From Streptomyces sp. RPA4-2 (GTDB lineage Bacteria > Actinomycetota > Actinomycetes > Streptomycetales > Streptomycetaceae), in the NCBI RefSeq assembly GCF_012273515.2, contig NZ_CP050975.2, forward strand, positions 2,232,001 through 2,296,000: a DNA stretch of 64,000 bases, given 5' to 3'. Both the position numbers and the translations under genes were made by a program. Of this stretch, positions 3,988-24,975 are shown in pieces (position 1 is the stretch's first letter; every line of letters begins with the position of its first letter). A model generated the notes under the pieces. It was not told the DNA's origin. It did no database searches and saw nothing but the letters and a program-made list of their open reading frames with translations.

Positions 3988-5156
3988 TGACCGATCTTGA
4001 GACGCCCGCCGCGACACCGCCCCGTACGGGCGCGCTGCGCCGCGCCGCACCAGCCCTTCTCGGGTACGCGGGCGTCCGCGCCCTGGGCCTGATCACCCTC
4101 TTCCTGTGGAGTGCCGCGAACGGCAAGAGCGCCCACACCCTGCTGACGGCGCGCTGGGACTCGCTCTGGTACACCCGGGTCGCCTCGTTCGGCTACGGCT
4201 GGCAGGTCCGGCTGCCCAACGGCGACGTGCACTCCAACCTCGCGTTCTTCCCGCTGCTGCCCTGGCTGGAGCGGCTCGTCGCGGCTCTGTCCCCCTTGTC
4301 GTACGCGGACGCGGGCCTGCTGGTGGGCACGCTCGCCTCGTTGGCCGCGGCCTGGGGGATCTTCGCGGTCGCGGACCACGTGTACGGACGGCGGGCCGGT
4401 GTCTGCGCCGCGCTCGTCTGGGCGGTACTGCCCGTCGGCATCGTGCAGTCGATGGCGTACAGCGAGTCCTTGTTCACGGCGCTGGCCGCCTGGTCGCTCT
4501 ACGCGGTACTGACCGGCCGCTGGGTGACGGCGGGCCTGCTCGCCTCGCTCGCCGGGCTGACCCGTCCGGTGGGGGCGGCGGTGGTCGCGGCGCTCTGGGT
4601 GGCGGCGATCACCTCGTTCGTGCGGGAGCGGAGCACGCCTTCCGCGCGGGGCGCCTCCCGATGGCGACGCGCCCTCGGCATGCTCCTCGCGCCGCTCGGC
4701 GCCGCCGGATACGTCCTGTGGGTCGGCCACCGTACGGGCCGGGGTCCGCTGGGCTATCTCGACATCCAGGGGCAGTGGGGCAACGGATTCGACGGCGGAT
4801 ACGCGTTCGCGCGCTTCGTGGGCGCCAAGTTCACGTCATTCCCGTCGGCCCTCGCCGGTGTCGGGCTGATCGCCGGGGTCGCCCTGGTGATCTGGCTGTA
4901 CGTCAGCTGTGTGCGACAGGGGCAGCCCCTCCCGCTGCTGGTGTACTCGGGGATCGTCACCGCACTCGCCCTGTGCGCTTCGGGCTACTTCGGCTCGAAA
5001 CCACGCCTTCTGCTGCCCGCCTTCCCCCTGCTGCTGCCCCTGGCGGTGGCTCTGGCCAGGCTGCGTACGGCCAGGTCAGCGGCGGTTCTCGGCGCCGTGG
5101 CCGCGGCGTCGGCGGTCTACGGGGCCTTCTGGCTGAACGGCTCCGGACCGCCATGA
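3987..5156 (+). CDS. PIG-V-like membrane mannosyltransferase (GT-C fold)
   Basis: About 389 residues, mostly membrane helices (roughly ten). The first external loop holds ARWDSLWYTRVA, matching the acidic W-D motif of polyprenyl-phosphate-sugar-dependent GT-C enzymes, and SNLAFFPLLP follows. This pattern fits the bacterial PIG-V/GPI mannosyltransferase-II-like family, which would move a sugar from a lipid carrier to an extracytoplasmic acceptor; acceptor and sugar are unknown. The GTG at 3987 is preferred: residues encoded upstream are not membrane-like, and a GATAAT hexamer at 3974-3979 sits 7 nt before it, with no Shine-Dalgarno sequence. This suggests a leaderless mRNA. The gene may be functionally linked to the PAP2 phosphatase that follows, since both act on polyprenyl-phosphate chemistry. 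Confidence 0.8.
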   Translation: MTDLETPAATPPRTGALRRAAPALLGYAGVRALGLITLFLWSAANGKSAHTLLTARWDSLWYTRVASFGYGWQVRLPNGDVHSNLAFFPLLPWLERLVAALSPLSYADAGLLVGTLASLAAAWGIFAVADHVYGRRAGVCAALVWAVLPVGIVQSMAYSESLFTALAAWSLYAVLTGRWVTAGLLASLAGLTRPVGAAVVAALWVAAITSFVRERSTPSARGASRWRRALGMLLAPLGAAGYVLWVGHRTGRGPLGYLDIQGQWGNGFDGGYAFARFVGAKFTSFPSALAGVGLIAGVALVIWLYVSCVRQGQPLPLLVYSGIVTALALCASGYFGSKPRLLLPAFPLLLPLAVALARLRTARSAAVLGAVAAASAVYGAFWLNGSGPP

Positions 5157-5396
5157 CCGGCCCCCGCACGGTCGGTGAGCAGCCGGAGAATTCCAGTCAA
5201 GCTTTCGGTGAACGAATTAATAAGCGCCATATAAGCGTGCCCAGAACCGATCAATGGAATTACGGGACCACCCCCCTCGAGGATTAGCGAATCATTAGAA
5301 ATAAACATCGCCCTGAGAGGAATCCCACATCACATCGTCATCACAAAGCGAGTGATTCGGCCTGGAACGCAGCTCACTCGCTGTAGCGTCGATTGG
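5157..5396. other. AT-rich intergenic region upstream of PAP2 gene
   Basis: About 240 nt with a clear drop in GC, including runs such as GAATTAATAAG and ATTAGAAATAAACA. Short open frames on both strands lack ribosome sites and family resemblance. The region probably holds the promoter of the PAP2 gene; TAGCGT at 5384-5389 lies 7 nt before the preferred GTG start. Confidence 0.4.
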
Positions 5397-19442: not shown

Positions 19443-20207
19443 ATGCGATCCGAGGCCCTGGTGCGCGACCACACGATCTACTCCTGCGTGATGGGGTCGC
19501 GCGCCTTCGGCCTGGCCACCGACGACAGCGACACGGACCGCCGGGGCGTGTTCCTCGCCCCGGCCCCCCTGTTCTGGCGCTTCGAGAAGCCGCCGACACA
19601 CGTCGAGGGCCCGGCCGAGGAGCAGTTCAGCTGGGAGCTGGAGCGGTTCTGCGTCCTCGCGCTGCGCGCCAATCCGAACATCCTGGAGTGCCTCCACTCC
19701 CCCCTCGTCGAGTACGCCGACGACACGGGCCGCGCGCTGCTCGCCCTGCGCGAGGCCTTCCTCTCCCGCCGGGTCCACGAGACGTTCGCCCGCTACGCGC
19801 AGGGCCAGCGCAAGAAGCTGGAAGCCGACGTCCGCCGGTACGGCGCCCCACGCTGGAAGCACGCGATGCACCTGCTCCGCCTCCTCATGTCCTCCCGCGA
19901 CCTGCTGCGCACCGGCGCCCTGACCCTCGACGTCGGCGAGCAGCGCGAACCGCTGCTCGCCGTCAAGCGGGGCGAGGTCCCGTGGAGCCGGGTGGAGGCG
20001 TGGATGAGCCGCCTGGCCGCGGAGACCGACGAGGCCGACGCGCGCAGTCCGCTGCCGGCCGAGCCGGACCACGCCCGCGTCGAGGACTTCCTGGTCGGTG
20101 CGCGCCGCGCCTCAGCCCGTCGCGCCGACCCCGGCGTCCGCCAGACGCACCCGGACGACGAGCGCGTGCAGGGCGTCGTGCACGGACGGGGCGTCCGGCA
20201 GCGCTGA
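19443..20207 (+). CDS. RlaP-type (DNA polymerase beta-like) nucleotidyltransferase A
   Basis: 254 residues. The catalytic core of the polymerase-beta superfamily is intact: GSRAFGLATDDSDTDRRG (about 18-35), i.e. GS followed by the D-x-D metal pair. A helical region follows (WELERFCVLALRANPNILECL; KHAMHLLRLL). It matches the family known as RlaP / 'RNA repair pathway DNA polymerase beta'. The last 30 or so residues are Arg/Asp-rich, unlike the family, and read into the antisense of the next gene (96-nt overlap). Its stop may therefore have been lost. It may add or remove nucleotides at RNA ends; substrate unknown. Confidence 0.8.
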   Translation: MRSEALVRDHTIYSCVMGSRAFGLATDDSDTDRRGVFLAPAPLFWRFEKPPTHVEGPAEEQFSWELERFCVLALRANPNILECLHSPLVEYADDTGRALLALREAFLSRRVHETFARYAQGQRKKLEADVRRYGAPRWKHAMHLLRLLMSSRDLLRTGALTLDVGEQREPLLAVKRGEVPWSRVEAWMSRLAAETDEADARSPLPAEPDHARVEDFLVGARRASARRADPGVRQTHPDDERVQGVVHGRGVRQR

Positions 20208-20885
20208 GGCCTGCTGGGCCGCGTCCAGCAGGGCGTGCAGCCGCGCCACGTCGTCCGCCACCCACGCGTGGTCGACGTCCGCGGCCCCGTGCTCCCGCTC
20301 CGTCTTCGCCGCCATCAGATCCGGCAGGTACGAGGGAGCGCCCGCCTCCTCGACGAGCGCGCGCAGATCGGCCTGCACCTCGCCGCTGCGCATCAGGTGG
20401 ATGCCGGTGAGCAGCACCCGGAACGTGTAGAGCAGCGGCTTGAGTTCACCGGTCTTCCCGAAGAGCCGCCACTGCGTCGTGGCGAACCCCCGGTAGTGGT
20501 GGGCGTGATGACGGGTGAGAGTCCCCGGCGCGAGCGAGACCAGCTCGCGGTGGGCCTCACCGGTGTGCACGACCAGGGGCGAGAGCAGCTGCTCCAGCAC
20601 GTAGCCGTTGCGCCGCAGCATCAGGCGTACGAACTTGCGCAGGTCGTGGGTGACGAGGTCCATCTCGACACCGTCCCGGTCCCACATCCGCGACCGGGTC
20701 TCCTCCGGTTCGCGCAGCCCGACCAGCTCGGCCGTCGGCAGCAGGTGAACGCCCCGCAGGTCGACGTCGGAGTCGCGCGAGGGGAAGCCGTACAGGTGTG
20801 CCCCGGAGATGGTGGCGAACAGCACCGGGTCGGGCTGCTCGGCCACCACCCCCGAGAGGTCGATGTCCAGGACGTCGTCGATCAT
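20112..20885 (-). CDS. RlaP-type nucleotidyltransferase B
   Basis: 257 residues, a second member of the same family as its convergent neighbour. The core is GAHLYGFPSRDSDVDLRG (about 28-45), with the D-x-D pair conserved, then EMDLVTHDLRKFVRLMLRRNGYVLEQLLSPLVV and a helical C-terminal part (LKPLLYTFRVLLTGIHLMRSG). It begins 3 nt after the ADP-ribosylglycohydrolase stop, so it is the third gene of the NUDIX-ARH-RlaP operon. The catalytic Gly-Ser of member A is Gly-Ala here. Having both members side by side suggests they may form a heterodimer or act in sequence. Confidence 0.82.
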   Translation of the reverse strand: MIDDVLDIDLSGVVAEQPDPVLFATISGAHLYGFPSRDSDVDLRGVHLLPTAELVGLREPEETRSRMWDRDGVEMDLVTHDLRKFVRLMLRRNGYVLEQLLSPLVVHTGEAHRELVSLAPGTLTRHHAHHYRGFATTQWRLFGKTGELKPLLYTFRVLLTGIHLMRSGEVQADLRALVEEAGAPSYLPDLMAAKTEREHGAADVDHAWVADDVARLHALLDAAQQASALPDAPSVHDALHALVVRVRLADAGVGATG

Positions 20886-20888
20886 CGG

Positions 20889-21914
20889 TCAAGCATCCCA
20901 GAGCGCCCCCAGCGACATGAGGTCGCTCTGGTATTCGATGCGGTCGGCCCACTCGGTCGGCCAGACGTCCGAGCCGTGGTGGGCACCCGCGAACGCGCCC
21001 GTCAGGCAGGCGATGGAGTCGGAGTCGCCGGAGGTGCAGGCCGCCCGGCGCAGCGCGGTGACGGGCTCGTCGACGAAGAGCAGGAAGCAGAGCAGGCCGG
21101 TGGTGAGCGCCTCCTCGGCGATCCAGCCCGCTCCGGTGGCGAGGCAGGGGTCGGTCTCGGGAGAGGGGGCGCGCAGGGCGTCCCTGAGCCGGTCCAGCGC
21201 GCCCAGGCACTCGTCCCAGCCGCGCTGGATGAAGTGCTCCGGCGTGGGGTCCTGGCTGCGGGTCCACAGGTCGCCGAGCCAACGGGAGTGGTACTGGCCG
21301 CGGTTCTCCTCGGCGTACGCGCGCAGCAGCCCGACCAGTTCCGCGGGCTCGGCACCCTGTACGAGGAGCCGGACGGCGTGGGCGGTGAGGTCGGAGGCGG
21401 CGAGCGCGGTGGGATGTCCGTGGGTGAGCGCCGCCTGCAACTGCGCCGCGCCCGCCCGCTGTTCGTCGCTCAGTCCCTGTACGAGACCCACCGGCGCCAC
21501 CCGCATGTTGGCGCCGCATCCCTTGGAGCCGATCTGGCTGGCGTCCTGCCAGGGGCGGCTCTCGTCCTTCAGGAGGTTGCAGGCGACCAGGCAGGTGCGG
21601 CCGGGCGCGCGGTTGTTGTCCGGCGACAGGTACCAGTCCACGAACTCCTCGCGCACCGGCCGTTCCATCCGCAGCGGTCCGAGCAGACCGCGGTCCATGG
21701 CCGTGCGCAGGCCCCGCCCCAGCGCCAGTGTCATCTGGGTGTCGTCGGTGACGATCGCGGGCCTGGGCAGTGCCATCTCCCGCCAGGGGCCGCACTTGGC
21801 GAGGATCGCCGGTATGTCGTTGAACTCGGTCGGGAATCCCAGCGCGTCGCCGAGGGCGAGGCCCAGCAGGGACCCGGTGGCGGCGTGCTTCGCGAGCGTC
21901 GGGGTGGTGGTCAT
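20889..21914 (-). CDS. ADP-ribosylglycohydrolase family protein
   Basis: About 341 residues of the DraG/ARH fold. Metal-binding motifs are present: IVTDDTQMTLALGRGL (about 55-70, the DDT pair) and CTSGDSDSIACLTGAFAGA (about 295-313, the GDSDS pair), which hold the two Mg ions. Enzymes of this family remove ADP-ribose from proteins, DNA or RNA, or cleave O-acetyl-ADP-ribose. The ATG overlaps the NUDIX stop by 1 nt (TGATG), so translation is coupled. With an NrtR-like sensor upstream and RlaP genes downstream, its product ADP-ribose could be the signal or the waste handled by this operon. Confidence 0.9.
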   Translation of the reverse strand: MTTTPTLAKHAATGSLLGLALGDALGFPTEFNDIPAILAKCGPWREMALPRPAIVTDDTQMTLALGRGLRTAMDRGLLGPLRMERPVREEFVDWYLSPDNNRAPGRTCLVACNLLKDESRPWQDASQIGSKGCGANMRVAPVGLVQGLSDEQRAGAAQLQAALTHGHPTALAASDLTAHAVRLLVQGAEPAELVGLLRAYAEENRGQYHSRWLGDLWTRSQDPTPEHFIQRGWDECLGALDRLRDALRAPSPETDPCLATGAGWIAEEALTTGLLCFLLFVDEPVTALRRAACTSGDSDSIACLTGAFAGAHHGSDVWPTEWADRIEYQSDLMSLGALWDA

Positions 21915-22663
21915 CAGGGCCGTCCTTCCGAAGGGGGACGCAACAGGGGCGGATGCAGGGCGGTGGCGCCGCCCGCGCGGTAGAGCGCGGCGGGTTTGCC
22001 GCGGCCTCCGGTGAGGCGAGCGGCCCCGGGAACCGGTTCGACGAAGCCCGGCGTGGCGAGGACCTTGCGCCGGAAGTTGGGCCGGTCGAGCTCGGTGCCC
22101 CACACCGTCTCGTAGACCCGCTGCAACTCGCCGAGGGTGAACTCGGGCGGGCAGAAGGAGGTGGCGAGACAGGTGTACTCGAGCTTGGCGCCGACGCGTT
22201 CGTGGGCGTCGGCGAGGATGCGGTCGTGGTCGAAGGCGAGCGGGCCGGGTGTGCGGTACGGCTGCCACCGGGCCTGCGCCGCGTCGCCGCCGCCGTGCGG
22301 CTCGGGAGGGTCGGGGAGCAGCGCGGCGAACGCGACGGAGACGACCCGCATCCTCGGGTCGCGGTCGGGGTCGCTGTAGGTCCGCAACTGCTCCAGGTGC
22401 AGGCGCGAGACGTCCGACAGACCGGTCTCCTCGGCGAGTTCGCGCCGGGCGGCCGTCTCCGCGGACTCGGCCGGCAGCACGAACCCGCCGGGCAGCGCCC
22501 AGTGGCCCGCGTACGGCTCCTGCCCCCGCTCGACGAGCAGCACCTCCAGCACGTCTGCGCGGATCGTCAGGACGGCCAGGTCCACGGTCACGGCGAAGGG
22601 TTCGAACGCGTACTTGTCGTAGCCCTCGGGCGCACTGCCGCCGGACGAGCGGTCCTGCCGCAC
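21914..22663 (-). CDS. NrtR-like NUDIX regulator (NUDIX + winged helix)
   Basis: About 249 residues from GTG 22663 (starts up to 22729 are possible). The NUDIX domain has an intact box, GFVLPAESAETAARRELAEE followed by TGL, so it may still hydrolyse its ligand. The C-terminal part (about 150-215, with TSFCPPEFTLGELQRVYETVWG and NFRRKVLATPGFVEPV) is the winged-helix domain of NrtR-type regulators. Characterised NrtR proteins repress NAD-metabolism genes and release DNA on binding ADP-ribose. It heads the operon with ADP-ribosylglycohydrolase and RlaP-B. A perfect 6-5-6 palindrome lies 113 nt upstream. Confidence 0.85.
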   Translation of the reverse strand: MRQDRSSGGSAPEGYDKYAFEPFAVTVDLAVLTIRADVLEVLLVERGQEPYAGHWALPGGFVLPAESAETAARRELAEETGLSDVSRLHLEQLRTYSDPDRDPRMRVVSVAFAALLPDPPEPHGGGDAAQARWQPYRTPGPLAFDHDRILADAHERVGAKLEYTCLATSFCPPEFTLGELQRVYETVWGTELDRPNFRRKVLATPGFVEPVPGAARLTGGRGKPAALYRAGGATALHPPLLRPPSEGRP

Positions 22664-22775
22664 GCGCACACCCACCCGGATCCGCCTCCACGTCCGCACG
22701 GCTCGCGGCCGACCCGATCGAGGGATCACCGGGAGCGGGGATCACCACGGGAGGTCGTCGGCGCGGCCATGAGTA

Positions 22776-22792
22776 ATAGTCACTGAGACTAT
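22776..22792. promoter_or_regulatory. Palindromic operator candidate of the NrtR-like regulator
   Basis: ATAGTC (22776-22781), five spacer bases, GACTAT (22787-22792): a perfect inverted repeat in an AT-rich patch that also looks promoter-like on the minus strand. Its size and location upstream of the NUDIX operon fit an NrtR-type operator. Confidence 0.55.
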
Positions 22793-23120: not shown

Positions 23121-24319
23121 CTAGAGGTCGACCTCGTTCATGAGCATGCCGACCTCGGTGTTCGACAGTCGGCGCAGCCAGCCCGACTTCTGGTCGCCGA
23201 GGGTGATCGGGCCGAAGGCGACGCGTACGAGCTTGTCCACCGGGAAGCCGGCCTCGGCGAGCATGCGGCGCACGATGTGCTTGCGGCCCTCGTGGAGGGT
23301 CACCTCGACCAGGTAGTTCTTGCCGGTCTGCTCGACGACGCGGAAGTGGTCCGCCTTCGCGTACCCGTCCTCCAGCTGGATGCCGTCCTTGAGCCGCTTG
23401 CCCAGGTCACGCGGGATCGGGCCGACGATGTGCGCGAGGTAGACCTTCTTCACGCCGTACTTCGGGTGGGTCAGCCGGTGCGCCAGCTCGCCGTGGTTGG
23501 TGAGCAGGATGACGCCCTCGGTCTCGGTGTCGAGCCGCCCGACGTGGAAGAGCCGCGTCTCGCGGTTCGTCACGTAGTCCCCGAGGCACTGCCGGCCCTC
23601 GGTGTCCTCCATGGTGGAGACGACACCGGCGGGCTTGTTCAGCGAGAAGAACTGGTACGACTGCGTGGCGACGGTCAGACCGTCGACCCGGATCTCGTCC
23701 TTCTCGGGGTCGACGCGCAGCCCCTGTTCGGTGACGATCTGGCCGTTGACCTCGACCCGGGCCTGCTCGACGAGCTCCTCACAGGCACGACGGGAGCCGT
23801 AGCCCGCCCGCGCGAGAACCTTCTGCAGACGCTCGCCCTCCTGCTCGGCGCCCGGGAAGGTCTTGGGCAGCTTGACCTCGGGCTTGCCCGCGTACCGGTC
23901 CCGGTTGCGCTCCTCGGCCCGCGTCTCGTACTCACGGGAGCGCGCGGGCTCCGTACGGCCGCCGCGCTGCTGGCCCTGCTTGGGGCCGCCCTTGGCGCCG
24001 CCGCGGGCCGCGTTGCCGCGCCCGGACTTCGGTCCCTCGTGGGTGGCGCCGGGGCCTACGTCGTAGCGGCGCTCCTCGGGACGGGGCTTGCTTAAGCGCG
24101 CTTCGGCCTGTCGTCGCCGCTCCCTCCGCCGCTCCGGGGCTGGGAGCCGCCCCCGCCGCTCCTCGACTGGGAACCGCCCCCGCCACTCCGGGGCTGAGAG
24201 CCGCCTCCGCCGCTCCGGGGCTGGGGACCGCCCCCGCCACTCCGGGGCTGAGAGCCGCCCCCGCCGGTCCCCCGGGGGTTGCCGCGTCCGCTGTTCCTGC
24301 CACTGCCACTGCTTCGCAT
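23121..24319 (-). CDS. Large-subunit rRNA pseudouridine synthase RluB-like, apparent frameshift
   Basis: S4 domain (LQKVLARAGYGSRRACEELV) followed by a pseudouridine synthase domain, with the catalytic-type Asp in HVGRLDTETEGVILLTNHGELAHRL; C-terminal motifs (LHEGRKHIVRRMLAEAGFPVDKLVR) are intact. The RluB/RluF family modifies a uridine near the 23S peptidyl-transferase region. The natural start is ATG 24319, overlapping the scpB stop (TGATG), and reads MRSSGSGRNSGRGNPRG then five Gly-rich GGGGSQPRS units. That frame hits TAA at 24094-24092, while the conserved part (from SKPRPEERRYDVGPG) continues in another frame. One base added near 24093-24097 would join them. It is either a sequencing error or a real lesion; translation might also start internally. 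Confidence 0.82.
24119..24276. repeat. Tandem repeat (27-nt units) encoding GGGGSQPRS
   Basis: Five near-identical 27-nt units in the 5' part of the rluB-like gene, encoding a flexible Gly/Ser/Arg/Gln linker on the minus strand. Such units readily expand and contract, and the apparent frameshift lies just beyond the array. Confidence 0.7.
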
Positions 24320-24975
24320 CAAAGTTCCGTCGTCGTCGTGTCGTCTGCATCTGCGTCCGGTGCATCCGGATGGAACGACGGGACCCCTTCCAGCGTCTCG
24401 GCTTCGATCGCGTCCGCCTCGGGGAGGAAGGGCGCGAGCTCCGGGAGCTCGTCCAGACCGCGCAGGCCCATTCGCTCCAGGAAGTAGTTCGTCGTCGTGT
24501 ACAGGATCGCACCTGTTTCGGGTTCCGTGCCCGCCTCCTCGACCAGACCGCGCTGCAAGAGGGTGCGCATCACCCCGTCACAGTTCACTCCGCGGACCGC
24601 CGAGACCCTGGAACGGCTGACCGGCTGGCGGTACGCGACGACCGCCAGGGTCTCCAGCGCGGCCTGGGTGAGACGGGCCTGCTGGCCGTCCAGGACGAAG
24701 CGTTCCACGGCCGCCGCGTACGCGGGCCGGGAGTAGAAGCGCCAGCCGCCGGCGATGAGCCGGAGCTCGAAGCCGCGGCCCTGGACGGTGTACTCGTCGG
24801 CCAGCTCCCGCAGCGCGTCCCTGACCTGCCGTTTCGGCCGCTCGAGGATCTTCGCGAGGTGCTCCTCGGTCGCGGGTTCGTCCACGACCATGAGGACGGC
24901 CTCCAGGGCGGGCCGGAGATCGAGGTCGGCGACGGTGCCCTGGTCCGCCGGGATCCCGCTGGTCTGCTCGCTCAC
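24319..24975 (-). CDS. scpB: Segregation and condensation protein B
   Basis: 218 residues, a kleisin-associated subunit of the SMC-ScpA-ScpB condensin. It has tandem winged helices: the first around PALEAVLMVVDEPATEEHLAKIL and the second around LTQAALETLAVVAYRQPVSRSRVSAVRGVNCDGVMRTLLQRGLVEEAG. The acidic, Thr-rich tail (DADADDTTTTEL) is variable. The GTG start overlaps the scpA stop by 4 nt and its own stop overlaps the rluB start, so all three are translationally coupled. Confidence 0.96.
   Translation of the reverse strand: MSEQTSGIPADQGTVADLDLRPALEAVLMVVDEPATEEHLAKILERPKRQVRDALRELADEYTVQGRGFELRLIAGGWRFYSRPAYAAAVERFVLDGQQARLTQAALETLAVVAYRQPVSRSRVSAVRGVNCDGVMRTLLQRGLVEEAGTEPETGAILYTTTNYFLERMGLRGLDELPELAPFLPEADAIEAETLEGVPSFHPDAPDADADDTTTTEL

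Follow-up and report, generated by a model that had tools for sequence, protein, structure and literature searches.

What could an ADP-ribosylglycohydrolase (ARH) and an RlaP-family nucleotidyltransferase be doing together behind a regulator of the NAD type? The question is raised by a locus of Streptomyces sp. RPA4-2 (GCF_012273515.2) lying in a stretch of 64,000 nt (NZ_CP050975.2, positions 2,232,001–2,296,000 of the forward strand), which we call the window and whose coordinates are used below. The original prediction placed four genes at 19443..22792, and all four were found there with Pfam domains over cut-off: an nrtR-like gene (21914–22729, minus strand), a gene of the ARH/DraG family (20889–21914, minus strand) and the genes of two RlaP-family nucleotidyltransferases, RlaP-A (20112–20885, minus strand) and RlaP-B (19443–20207, plus strand). 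The spacing was confirmed as well. The stop codon of nrtR and the start codon of ARH share one base (TGATG), a 1-nt overlap; 3 nt separate ARH from RlaP-A; the convergent RlaP-B gene overlaps the 3′-end of RlaP-A with its own final 96 nt. The start codon of nrtR is uncertain (GTG at 22729 or another). Judged by this spacing, the nrtR-like, ARH and RlaP-A genes form one predicted minus-strand operon with RlaP-A as its last gene, while RlaP-B is probably a separate transcription unit.

Upstream of nrtR lies a gene with S4 and pseudouridine synthase domains (23121–24512, minus strand), called rluB here and used as a syntenic marker only; scpB and scpA are situated beyond it. The genes between tyrA and rluB-scpB-scpA keep their order in relatives (flanking genes were named by Pfam), and thus the gene set is more than chance. 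In many relatives two further genes, recognised as pnuC and nadR with NCBIfam and Pfam models, sit between rluB and nrtR. The loci compared were selected for holding ARH or RlaP; therefore, the fractions given below are not genus-wide frequencies.

The statement that catalytic motifs are intact in all four genes held well: the motif residues are conserved in at least 97% of the aligned proteins of relatives, counted over core (syntenic) and non-core loci together. For the NrtR-like protein (NUDIX PF00293, 75.3 bits; NrtR_WHD PF21906, 59.4 bits) these are the Nudix box residues G-x5-E-x7-RELAEETG in 80 aligned proteins; for ARH (ADP_ribosyl_GH, 217.5 bits over the full length) they are DDTQM and GDSDS in 101 proteins, the Asp motifs of this family being metal-binding. 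Both RlaP proteins match PF10127 (177.8 bits for RlaP-A, 117.8 bits for RlaP-B); RlaP-A keeps SG, DSDxD and a third Asp (52 aligned proteins), and RlaP-B keeps GS, SDxD and a Glu as the third carboxylate (89 aligned proteins). The ARH scores stay below the cut-offs of the DraG equivalog TIGR02662 (69.5 versus 337) and of Tri1 NF041672 (64.2 versus 490). From its family membership ARH should remove ADP-ribose tags, as had been proposed.

The best of the 15 NCBIfam matches to the NrtR-like protein was to the equivalog NF050029 (ADPR responsive repressor), at 116.8 bits against a cut-off of 400; by this score the protein would be at most a diverged member of that equivalog. Its relatives with solved structures include AraR (5bs6) and 3gz5/3gz6, and 3gz6 is termed an NrtR structure in PMC5045206. 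The pair of domains, a conserved palindrome at its own operon and, in relatives, linkage to NAD genes all agree with membership in the NrtR group.

The palindrome is a perfect inverted repeat, ATAGTC-ACTGA-GACTAT, upstream of nrtR (putative operator, 22776–22792; read on the operon strand as TTTATAGTC), and the predicted operator may cover a −10 element. With at most one mismatch it was found upstream of the operon in 71 of the 80 core loci with nrtR, being absent from nine, and in 68 of the 76 named loci with nrtR, being absent from eight. Its position follows the head of the operon: it heads 34 of 40 core loci in which the operon starts with nrtR (and also L151), and 36 of 39 in which it starts with pnuC/nadR. 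One genome (G024) carries elsewhere a second pnuC-nadR-nrtR copy headed by a perfect operator, and in another (G121) pnuC-nadR is headed by an operator with one mismatch. The operator covaries with nrtR: in a tree-paired test the site accompanied nrtR in 3.8 of four supported independent pairs and never behaved in the opposite way, four pairs putting a p of 0.05 out of reach.

In the window genome ATAGTC-N5-GACTAT (at most one mismatch) occurs in a single copy, the reversed control pattern also giving one match. As this sole copy sits at the minus-strand operon and the genome pattern scan gave no operator on the promoter side of RlaP-B, RlaP-B falls outside the predicted regulon and a four-gene regulon was rejected.

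The genus has a second NrtR, whose own promoter carries a sister site, ATCGTC-N5-GACGA(C/T); at one mismatch this site was present in all 15 Streptomyces loci read, and outside Streptomyces it was perfect in three of five. Among 14 ARH genes with no local nrtR the first type of site was found in none and the second type in ten; four loci had neither. If confirmed, this switch from one operator type to the other at loci without their own repressor is a clean natural example of one regulator taking over from another. A genome scan with ATCGTC-N5-GACGAT gave 88 forward matches at one mismatch versus four for the reversed control; next to the three perfect sites, among the matches listed, no NAD gene was recognised by eye. 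One outgroup genome has its NrtR paralog next to a Sir2 gene (locus L183). Taken with both NrtR domains and the conserved operator, the second NrtR and its sister site support the predicted ADP-ribose-responsive control; the NrtR-like protein very probably senses ADP-ribose and controls the operon. This Streptomyces regulon could already be listed in the NrtR regulon tables of Rodionov (2008).

PnuC and NadR serve in the import of nicotinamide riboside and its conversion to NAD. In 36 of the 101 core loci pnuC, nadR and nrtR are all present, with pnuC and nadR first in the operon; thus NAD salvage appears as the main theme. In a run over 120 genomes, nadR was matched in 27 Streptomyces genomes, and in 25 of these it lies at this locus. 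No nadR match was obtained in the window genome, so NAD refill by that route is not expected there, and the pnuC-nadR arm has probably been lost in this species.

With reasonable, though far from full, confidence we consider the module to be an NrtR-repressed, ADP-ribose-induced operon for recycling of NAD and ADP-ribose, with pnuC-nadR-nrtR-ARH-rlaP as its fullest form in the genus; it looks like a unit for recycling and not like a self-contained system of RNA repair. In such an operon NrtR would occupy ATAGTC-N5-GACTAT across the promoter. Breakdown of NAD or ADP-ribosylation of macromolecules would yield free ADP-ribose, released in part by ARH, which would bind NrtR and open the operon; by taking ADP-ribose off an acceptor ARH would feed the signal. 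The response may be ended by NrtR itself, its intact Nudix site splitting ADP-ribose into AMP and ribose 5-phosphate. In loci that have them, PnuC and NadR would restock NAD from nicotinamide riboside. RlaP-A would transfer nucleotides, most likely onto nucleic-acid ends that this insult has also damaged. Of this scheme the window species keeps the ARH-RlaP arm and lacks the arm for refill.

A bolder version would make all parts serve one ADP-ribose-triggered response, in which ARH frees ADP-ribosylated RNA or protein, RlaP restores the RNA ends thus exposed, PnuC and NadR restore NAD consumed by an attack and the Nudix domain of the repressor switches the response off. In this version a paralogous NrtR takes over the promoter where the local repressor was lost, so that selection keeps ARH under ADP-ribose control. 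We offer it as speculation that is unlikely to hold in full.

Could the genes be neighbours by chance, ARH and RlaP simply adjoining an NAD salvage operon with no function in common? On the locus tree they do come and go separately. Among loci chosen for holding ARH or RlaP, ARH is steady (four changes), while RlaP-A, with 29 changes, is the most volatile part of the operon and, changing so often, cannot be essential to operon function; RlaP-B changed 14 times and nrtR 12 times. Of 30 gene-presence pairings run on this tree, none was significant. The nearest, RlaP-A with RlaP-B, went the same way in 3.2 and the other way in 0.2 of 14 pairs (median p 0.25, range 0.03–1). Yet the genes overlap or nearly so behind one predicted operator, the operator type tracks the regulator even at ARH genes with no nrtR, and in core loci an intact ARH accompanies 49 of the 50 RlaP-A genes that are intact. 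Chance is therefore a very doubtful explanation.

Conservation of the four genes across actinobacteria, which had been proposed as a check, did not hold. A sample of 396 genomes from the phylum, covering 241 genera, gave RlaP in 30 genomes and 14 genera, and neither ARH nor NrtR was seen at any of 20 RlaP loci outside Streptomyces within the limited flanks scanned (about 1.5 kb per side at most for 16 of them); a set conserved at this depth was rejected. The refuting case of genes scattered independently came half true: both RlaP genes and nrtR are gained or lost often on the locus tree, and the association was not seen within those flanks at the 20 loci outside the genus, while ARH is steady.

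The part played by RlaP is reached indirectly. The predicted structure of RlaP-A has a mean pLDDT of 91.3; a sequence search with it gave no solved structure at E ≤ 1, and a fold search gave many nucleotidyltransferases with similar scores. Since this fold is common to many nucleotidyltransferases, it does not tell substrates apart. Another proposal is that the locus serves metabolite damage control, with ARH cleaving a small ADP-ribosyl compound (e.g. alpha-NAD or O-acyl-ADP-ribose), RlaP adenylylating a small molecule and RNA not being involved. Human ARH enzymes do act on alpha-NAD; the neighbours of RlaP in phages favour RNA, and we find the proposal improbable. In nine of 15 records examined, the phage RlaP relatives had a gene annotated as RNA ligase or polynucleotide kinase nearby; Pfam confirmed one of each. 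It is mainly on these relatives that a role of RlaP-A in rebuilding RNA ends would rest. The annotated PnuC next to RlaP in phage GiJojo was dropped as independent support, having no Pfam match.

The predicted reprocessing of RNA ends thus gains from phages and loses at the locus itself: among the four genes and the eight flanking genes scanned with Pfam there was no RNA ligase or end-processing enzyme, and RlaP-B lies outside the operator's reach. In a hand count over 90 genomes of the genus (G000–G089) a strong RNA-ligase match (PF09414, E < 1e-15) was present anywhere in the genome in 21 of 41 genomes with RlaP-A versus 15 of 49 others. With 20 of the 41 showing no such match, the association is weak and the idea that RlaP requires an RNA ligase in the same genome was rejected. 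In the non-core RlaP loci read (L128, L131, L136, L144, L146 and L147) no recurrent neighbour was recognised by eye. Compared with other RlaP-family (PF10127) systems, the Pfam family name and the catalytic residues are common; here RNA ligase and kinase are absent and RlaP-A is joined to ARH and an NAD-type repressor. If RlaP acts on RNA ends here, a single operon would connect NAD stress with RNA damage.

The phage neighbourhoods also agree with a conflict system, in line with the original prediction: NrtR would turn the genes on when toxins of phages or competitors attach ADP-ribose to macromolecules of the host, ARH would undo the modification and RlaP would restore RNA ends. The patchiness of RlaP-A fits such a system, as does a distant ARH (28% identity) adjoining a tandem RlaP pair (L130 in G035). 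Furthermore, ARH-centred operons with Nudix-HTH repressors in actinobacteria have been predicted to be counter-ADP-ribosylation systems (PMC9503650); the coupling of ARH to a Nudix repressor is thus already published, and our locus looks like a differing version of it. In the section of PMC9503650 on these ARG-centred systems the repressors are of Nudix-HTH or WYL type, and, as here, no ADP-ribosyltransferase is beside the hydrolase; for the window ARH neither an ADP-ribosyltransferase nor a sirtuin was seen by Pfam among the flanking genes, one of the eight having no match. Phosphatase, chaperone, ARPP and REase are frequent there, though as extra parts not obligatory (phosphatase in a little over 55%), whereas the eight flanking genes of the window locus, again with one lacking any Pfam match, contain no phosphatase, chaperone, REase or transferase domain and no ARPP. 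That section mentions neither RlaP nor the nadR-pnuC of our relatives. Against a conflict system also stand the pnuC-nadR genes, which indicate metabolism, the fixed chromosomal place with an ARH near-constant among the loci chosen, unlike a mobile defence island, and the PADLOC defence models, which gave for the four proteins only a weak match in the Nudix region (PDC-S07, 25.2 bits). We regard the conflict system as rather unlikely, while granting it some weight, and continue with the recycling operon.

By gene order, we take SCO1766 of S. coelicolor to be the probable orthologue of the window ARH. It is listed as an uncharacterised DraG-like hydrolase in PMC5087735, where seven such hydrolases stand against only one possible ADP-ribosyltransferase listed and the roles of the hydrolases are left open; the passages naming SCO1766 are lists and do not describe its operon or regulation. 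One ARH tied to an NAD-type repressor with a defined predicted operator offers an entry to inducer, regulon and acceptor.

MsNrtR of M. smegmatis (PMC6800001) has in common with our regulator the Nudix and winged-helix domains, a palindrome at its own gene and a link to NAD genes. As described there, its operator is GTTTTCGA-N7-TCGAAAAC versus ATAGTC-N5-GACTAT here, its Nudix box is altered and inactive versus intact, and its linked genes are nadABC versus pnuC-nadR-ARH-rlaP. In the Deinococcus operon DRB0100-DRB0099-DRB0098 (RNA/DNA ligase, PARG and HD-phosphatase/polynucleotide kinase), for which the passages concerned in PMC11833690 name no NrtR or NAD salvage gene, the hydrolase is a PARG macrodomain rather than an ARH, and ligase and kinase stand in place of RlaP; still, an ADP-ribosylhydrolase with nucleic-acid end-repair enzymes in one operon is what that arrangement has in common with ours (PMC11833690).

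In the minus-strand operon, 21914-22729 encodes a NUDIX-winged-helix protein of the NrtR type, 20889-21914 a hydrolase of the ARH family and 20112-20885 the RlaP nucleotidyltransferase RlaP-A; the gene for another RlaP nucleotidyltransferase, RlaP-B (19443-20207), is convergent to RlaP-A. The original prediction had placed four genes here, and we confirmed their coordinates, the single base common to the nrtR-like stop and the ARH start, the 3-nt gap between ARH and RlaP-A, and Pfam matches above the curated cut-offs for all four. The convergent genes of RlaP-A and RlaP-B share 96 nt at their 3' ends (window 20112-20207); aligned relatives of RlaP-B are mostly shorter (median 233 aa versus 254). 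The flanking genes are ordinary: by Pfam, prephenate dehydrogenase, a YidB-like protein, an ORF without Pfam match, DUF6529 and a Rieske protein on one side, and an S4/pseudouridine synthase (called rluB), scpB and scpA on the other. The closest species-named relative is S. fagopyri (93% identity by RlaP-A, 91% by RlaP-B); the chromosome of the window genome is a single contig of 9.86 Mb.

Upstream of nrtR we observed a perfect inverted repeat, ATAGTC-ACTGA-GACTAT (22776-22792), a putative operator. With up to one mismatch it has a single copy in the window genome; the reversed control pattern also matches once, therefore uniqueness by itself proves little. What carries weight for the putative operator is its conservation in relatives. 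We fetched 120 relatives' loci, of which 101 had a flanking marker (rluB, or tyrA in the right frame) and made up the core. The nrtR gene was present in 80 core loci, and 71 of these (70 of 79, plus L151, a locus later added to the core) had the site with ≤1 mismatch in the 350 nt preceding the operon's first gene; as background, 2400 windows of 350 nt were drawn at random from these loci without masking the true sites, and 69 contained it. Among the 80 named loci nearest the window's ARH, the site was found in 68 of 76 nrtR-bearing loci, with one more locus too short; several genomes are common to the named and the other locus sets, therefore the two are not independent. By this comparison, control of the operon by the NrtR repressor through the putative operator is well supported, and ADP-ribose would, as follows from the family, be the signal. 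For MsNrtR, PMC6800001 describes a palindrome different from this site, loss of Nudix activity, and release by ADP-ribose, demonstrated at high concentration.

Among the matches listed, many Streptomyces genomes have a further NrtR-like gene, including the window genome (63% identical; G000:C1:6687431-6688180, outside the window), where it is accompanied by a palindrome of its own and followed by a gene for an ABC-transporter ATPase. The paralog's promoter carried ATCGTC-N5-GACGA(C/T), identical in layout to the first site and differing by one base per half, in all 15 Streptomyces loci read, at one mismatch; outside Streptomyces it was perfect in three of five paralog loci and absent in the other two. 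Fourteen core loci had ARH without nrtR: none had the first site, 10 had the second type (≤1 mismatch; background 12 of 2400 random windows) and four had neither. The simplest interpretation is that, where the local repressor is absent, the paralog would take over the promoter. On a locus tree built with FastTree from RluB, ScpB and ScpA (94 rows), 3.8 of the 4 independent pairs with support linked the first site to nrtR, and 1.9 of 4 set the second type against nrtR; four pairs are too few to reach significance. Sir2 is an NAD consumer. In the outgroup genome G191 the paralog directly adjoins a Sir2-family gene (L183:3612-4475 and 4528-5220). Genome G128 has an ARH relative (~60% identity) with Sir2 and Nudix genes within 4 kb (L143:3434-8241), a stretch from which nrtR and RlaP are absent.

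The original prediction read the module as an ADP-ribose-responsive system reprocessing RNA ends; the comparison adds probable operator control by NrtR, and pnuC-nadR in relatives shifts the likely centre of function, so that the interpretation needs to be recentred on NAD. In many relatives pnuC and a nadR-like gene sit between nrtR and rluB, and nrtR is then not the first gene. PnuC scored 107.6 bits with TIGR01528 (cut-off 42.45) and 199.2 bits with PF04973; the nadR-like product scored 155.2 bits with TIGR01526, under the cut-off of 341, and GKFYPPHxGH and a P-loop were spotted by eye. Among the 101 core loci, 39 had nadR and 36 had pnuC, nadR and nrtR together; the first site preceded pnuC/nadR in 36 of the 39 loci with these genes at the operon head. 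A second pnuC-nadR-nrtR copy elsewhere in genome G024 has a perfect first site, and a pnuC-nadR pair in G121, from a different family, has one with one mismatch. In a 120-genome run, 25 of the 27 Streptomyces genomes with a nadR match had it at the module locus, and the window genome had none at E 1e-25; with pnuC-nadR at the operon head in relatives, the window operon thus represents a shorter version, arising either through loss there or through gain of the pair in relatives.

The fewest changes on the locus tree were 4 for ARH, 6 for nadR, 9 for pnuC, 12 for nrtR, 14 for RlaP-B and 29 for RlaP-A, the steadiness of ARH being partly selection because loci were picked for having ARH or RlaP. 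ARH was intact in 49 of 50 core loci with intact RlaP-A, and six core loci had intact RlaP-B without intact ARH. An intact set of the four window genes was present in 41 of the 101 core loci and in 42 of the 80 named loci; 19 of the core loci had all six genes intact. None of 30 gene-presence pairings was significant over the locus tree. Genome-wide searches of 199 relatives found RlaP in 124 and ARH (E≤1e-20, scoring the ten best candidates) in 115; in a phylum-wide sample RlaP was found in only 30 of 396 genomes. Outside the core locus of genome G035, a tandem RlaP-B/RlaP-A pair adjoins a distant ARH, 28% identical to that of the window (L130:2945-5510), a second and separate ARH-RlaP neighbourhood. 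In G041 (L099, L100), pnuC-nadR-nrtR-ARH sit at the core locus and an RlaP pair is on a separate 12.5-kb contig, together with a short ARH-like fragment; this pair may be relocated or an additional copy.

By gene order, S. coelicolor SCO1766 is probably the counterpart of the window's ARH. It appears among uncharacterised DraG-like hydrolases in PMC5087735. ARH-centred operons with Nudix-HTH repressors have been predicted as counter-ADP-ribosylation systems (PMC9503650, section 3.8); the partners named there are phosphatases, chaperones, ARPP and REases, and RlaP and nadR are not among them. In PMC11833690, SCO5809, an ARH-like S. coelicolor enzyme, is shown to act on RNA phosphate ends, from which it strips ADP-ribose, but not on ADP-ribosylated guanosine bases; a Deinococcus ligase-PARG-kinase operon is also described. 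A role of RlaP at RNA ends may reasonably, if indirectly, be inferred; the prediction for RlaP is given in PMC7824862. An RNA-ligase domain match (80.6 bits, 355-aa gene; G000:C1:2164673-2165224) lies ~87 kb from the module in the window genome, and several relatives, among those listed, have similar matches at a roughly similar distance from the locus.
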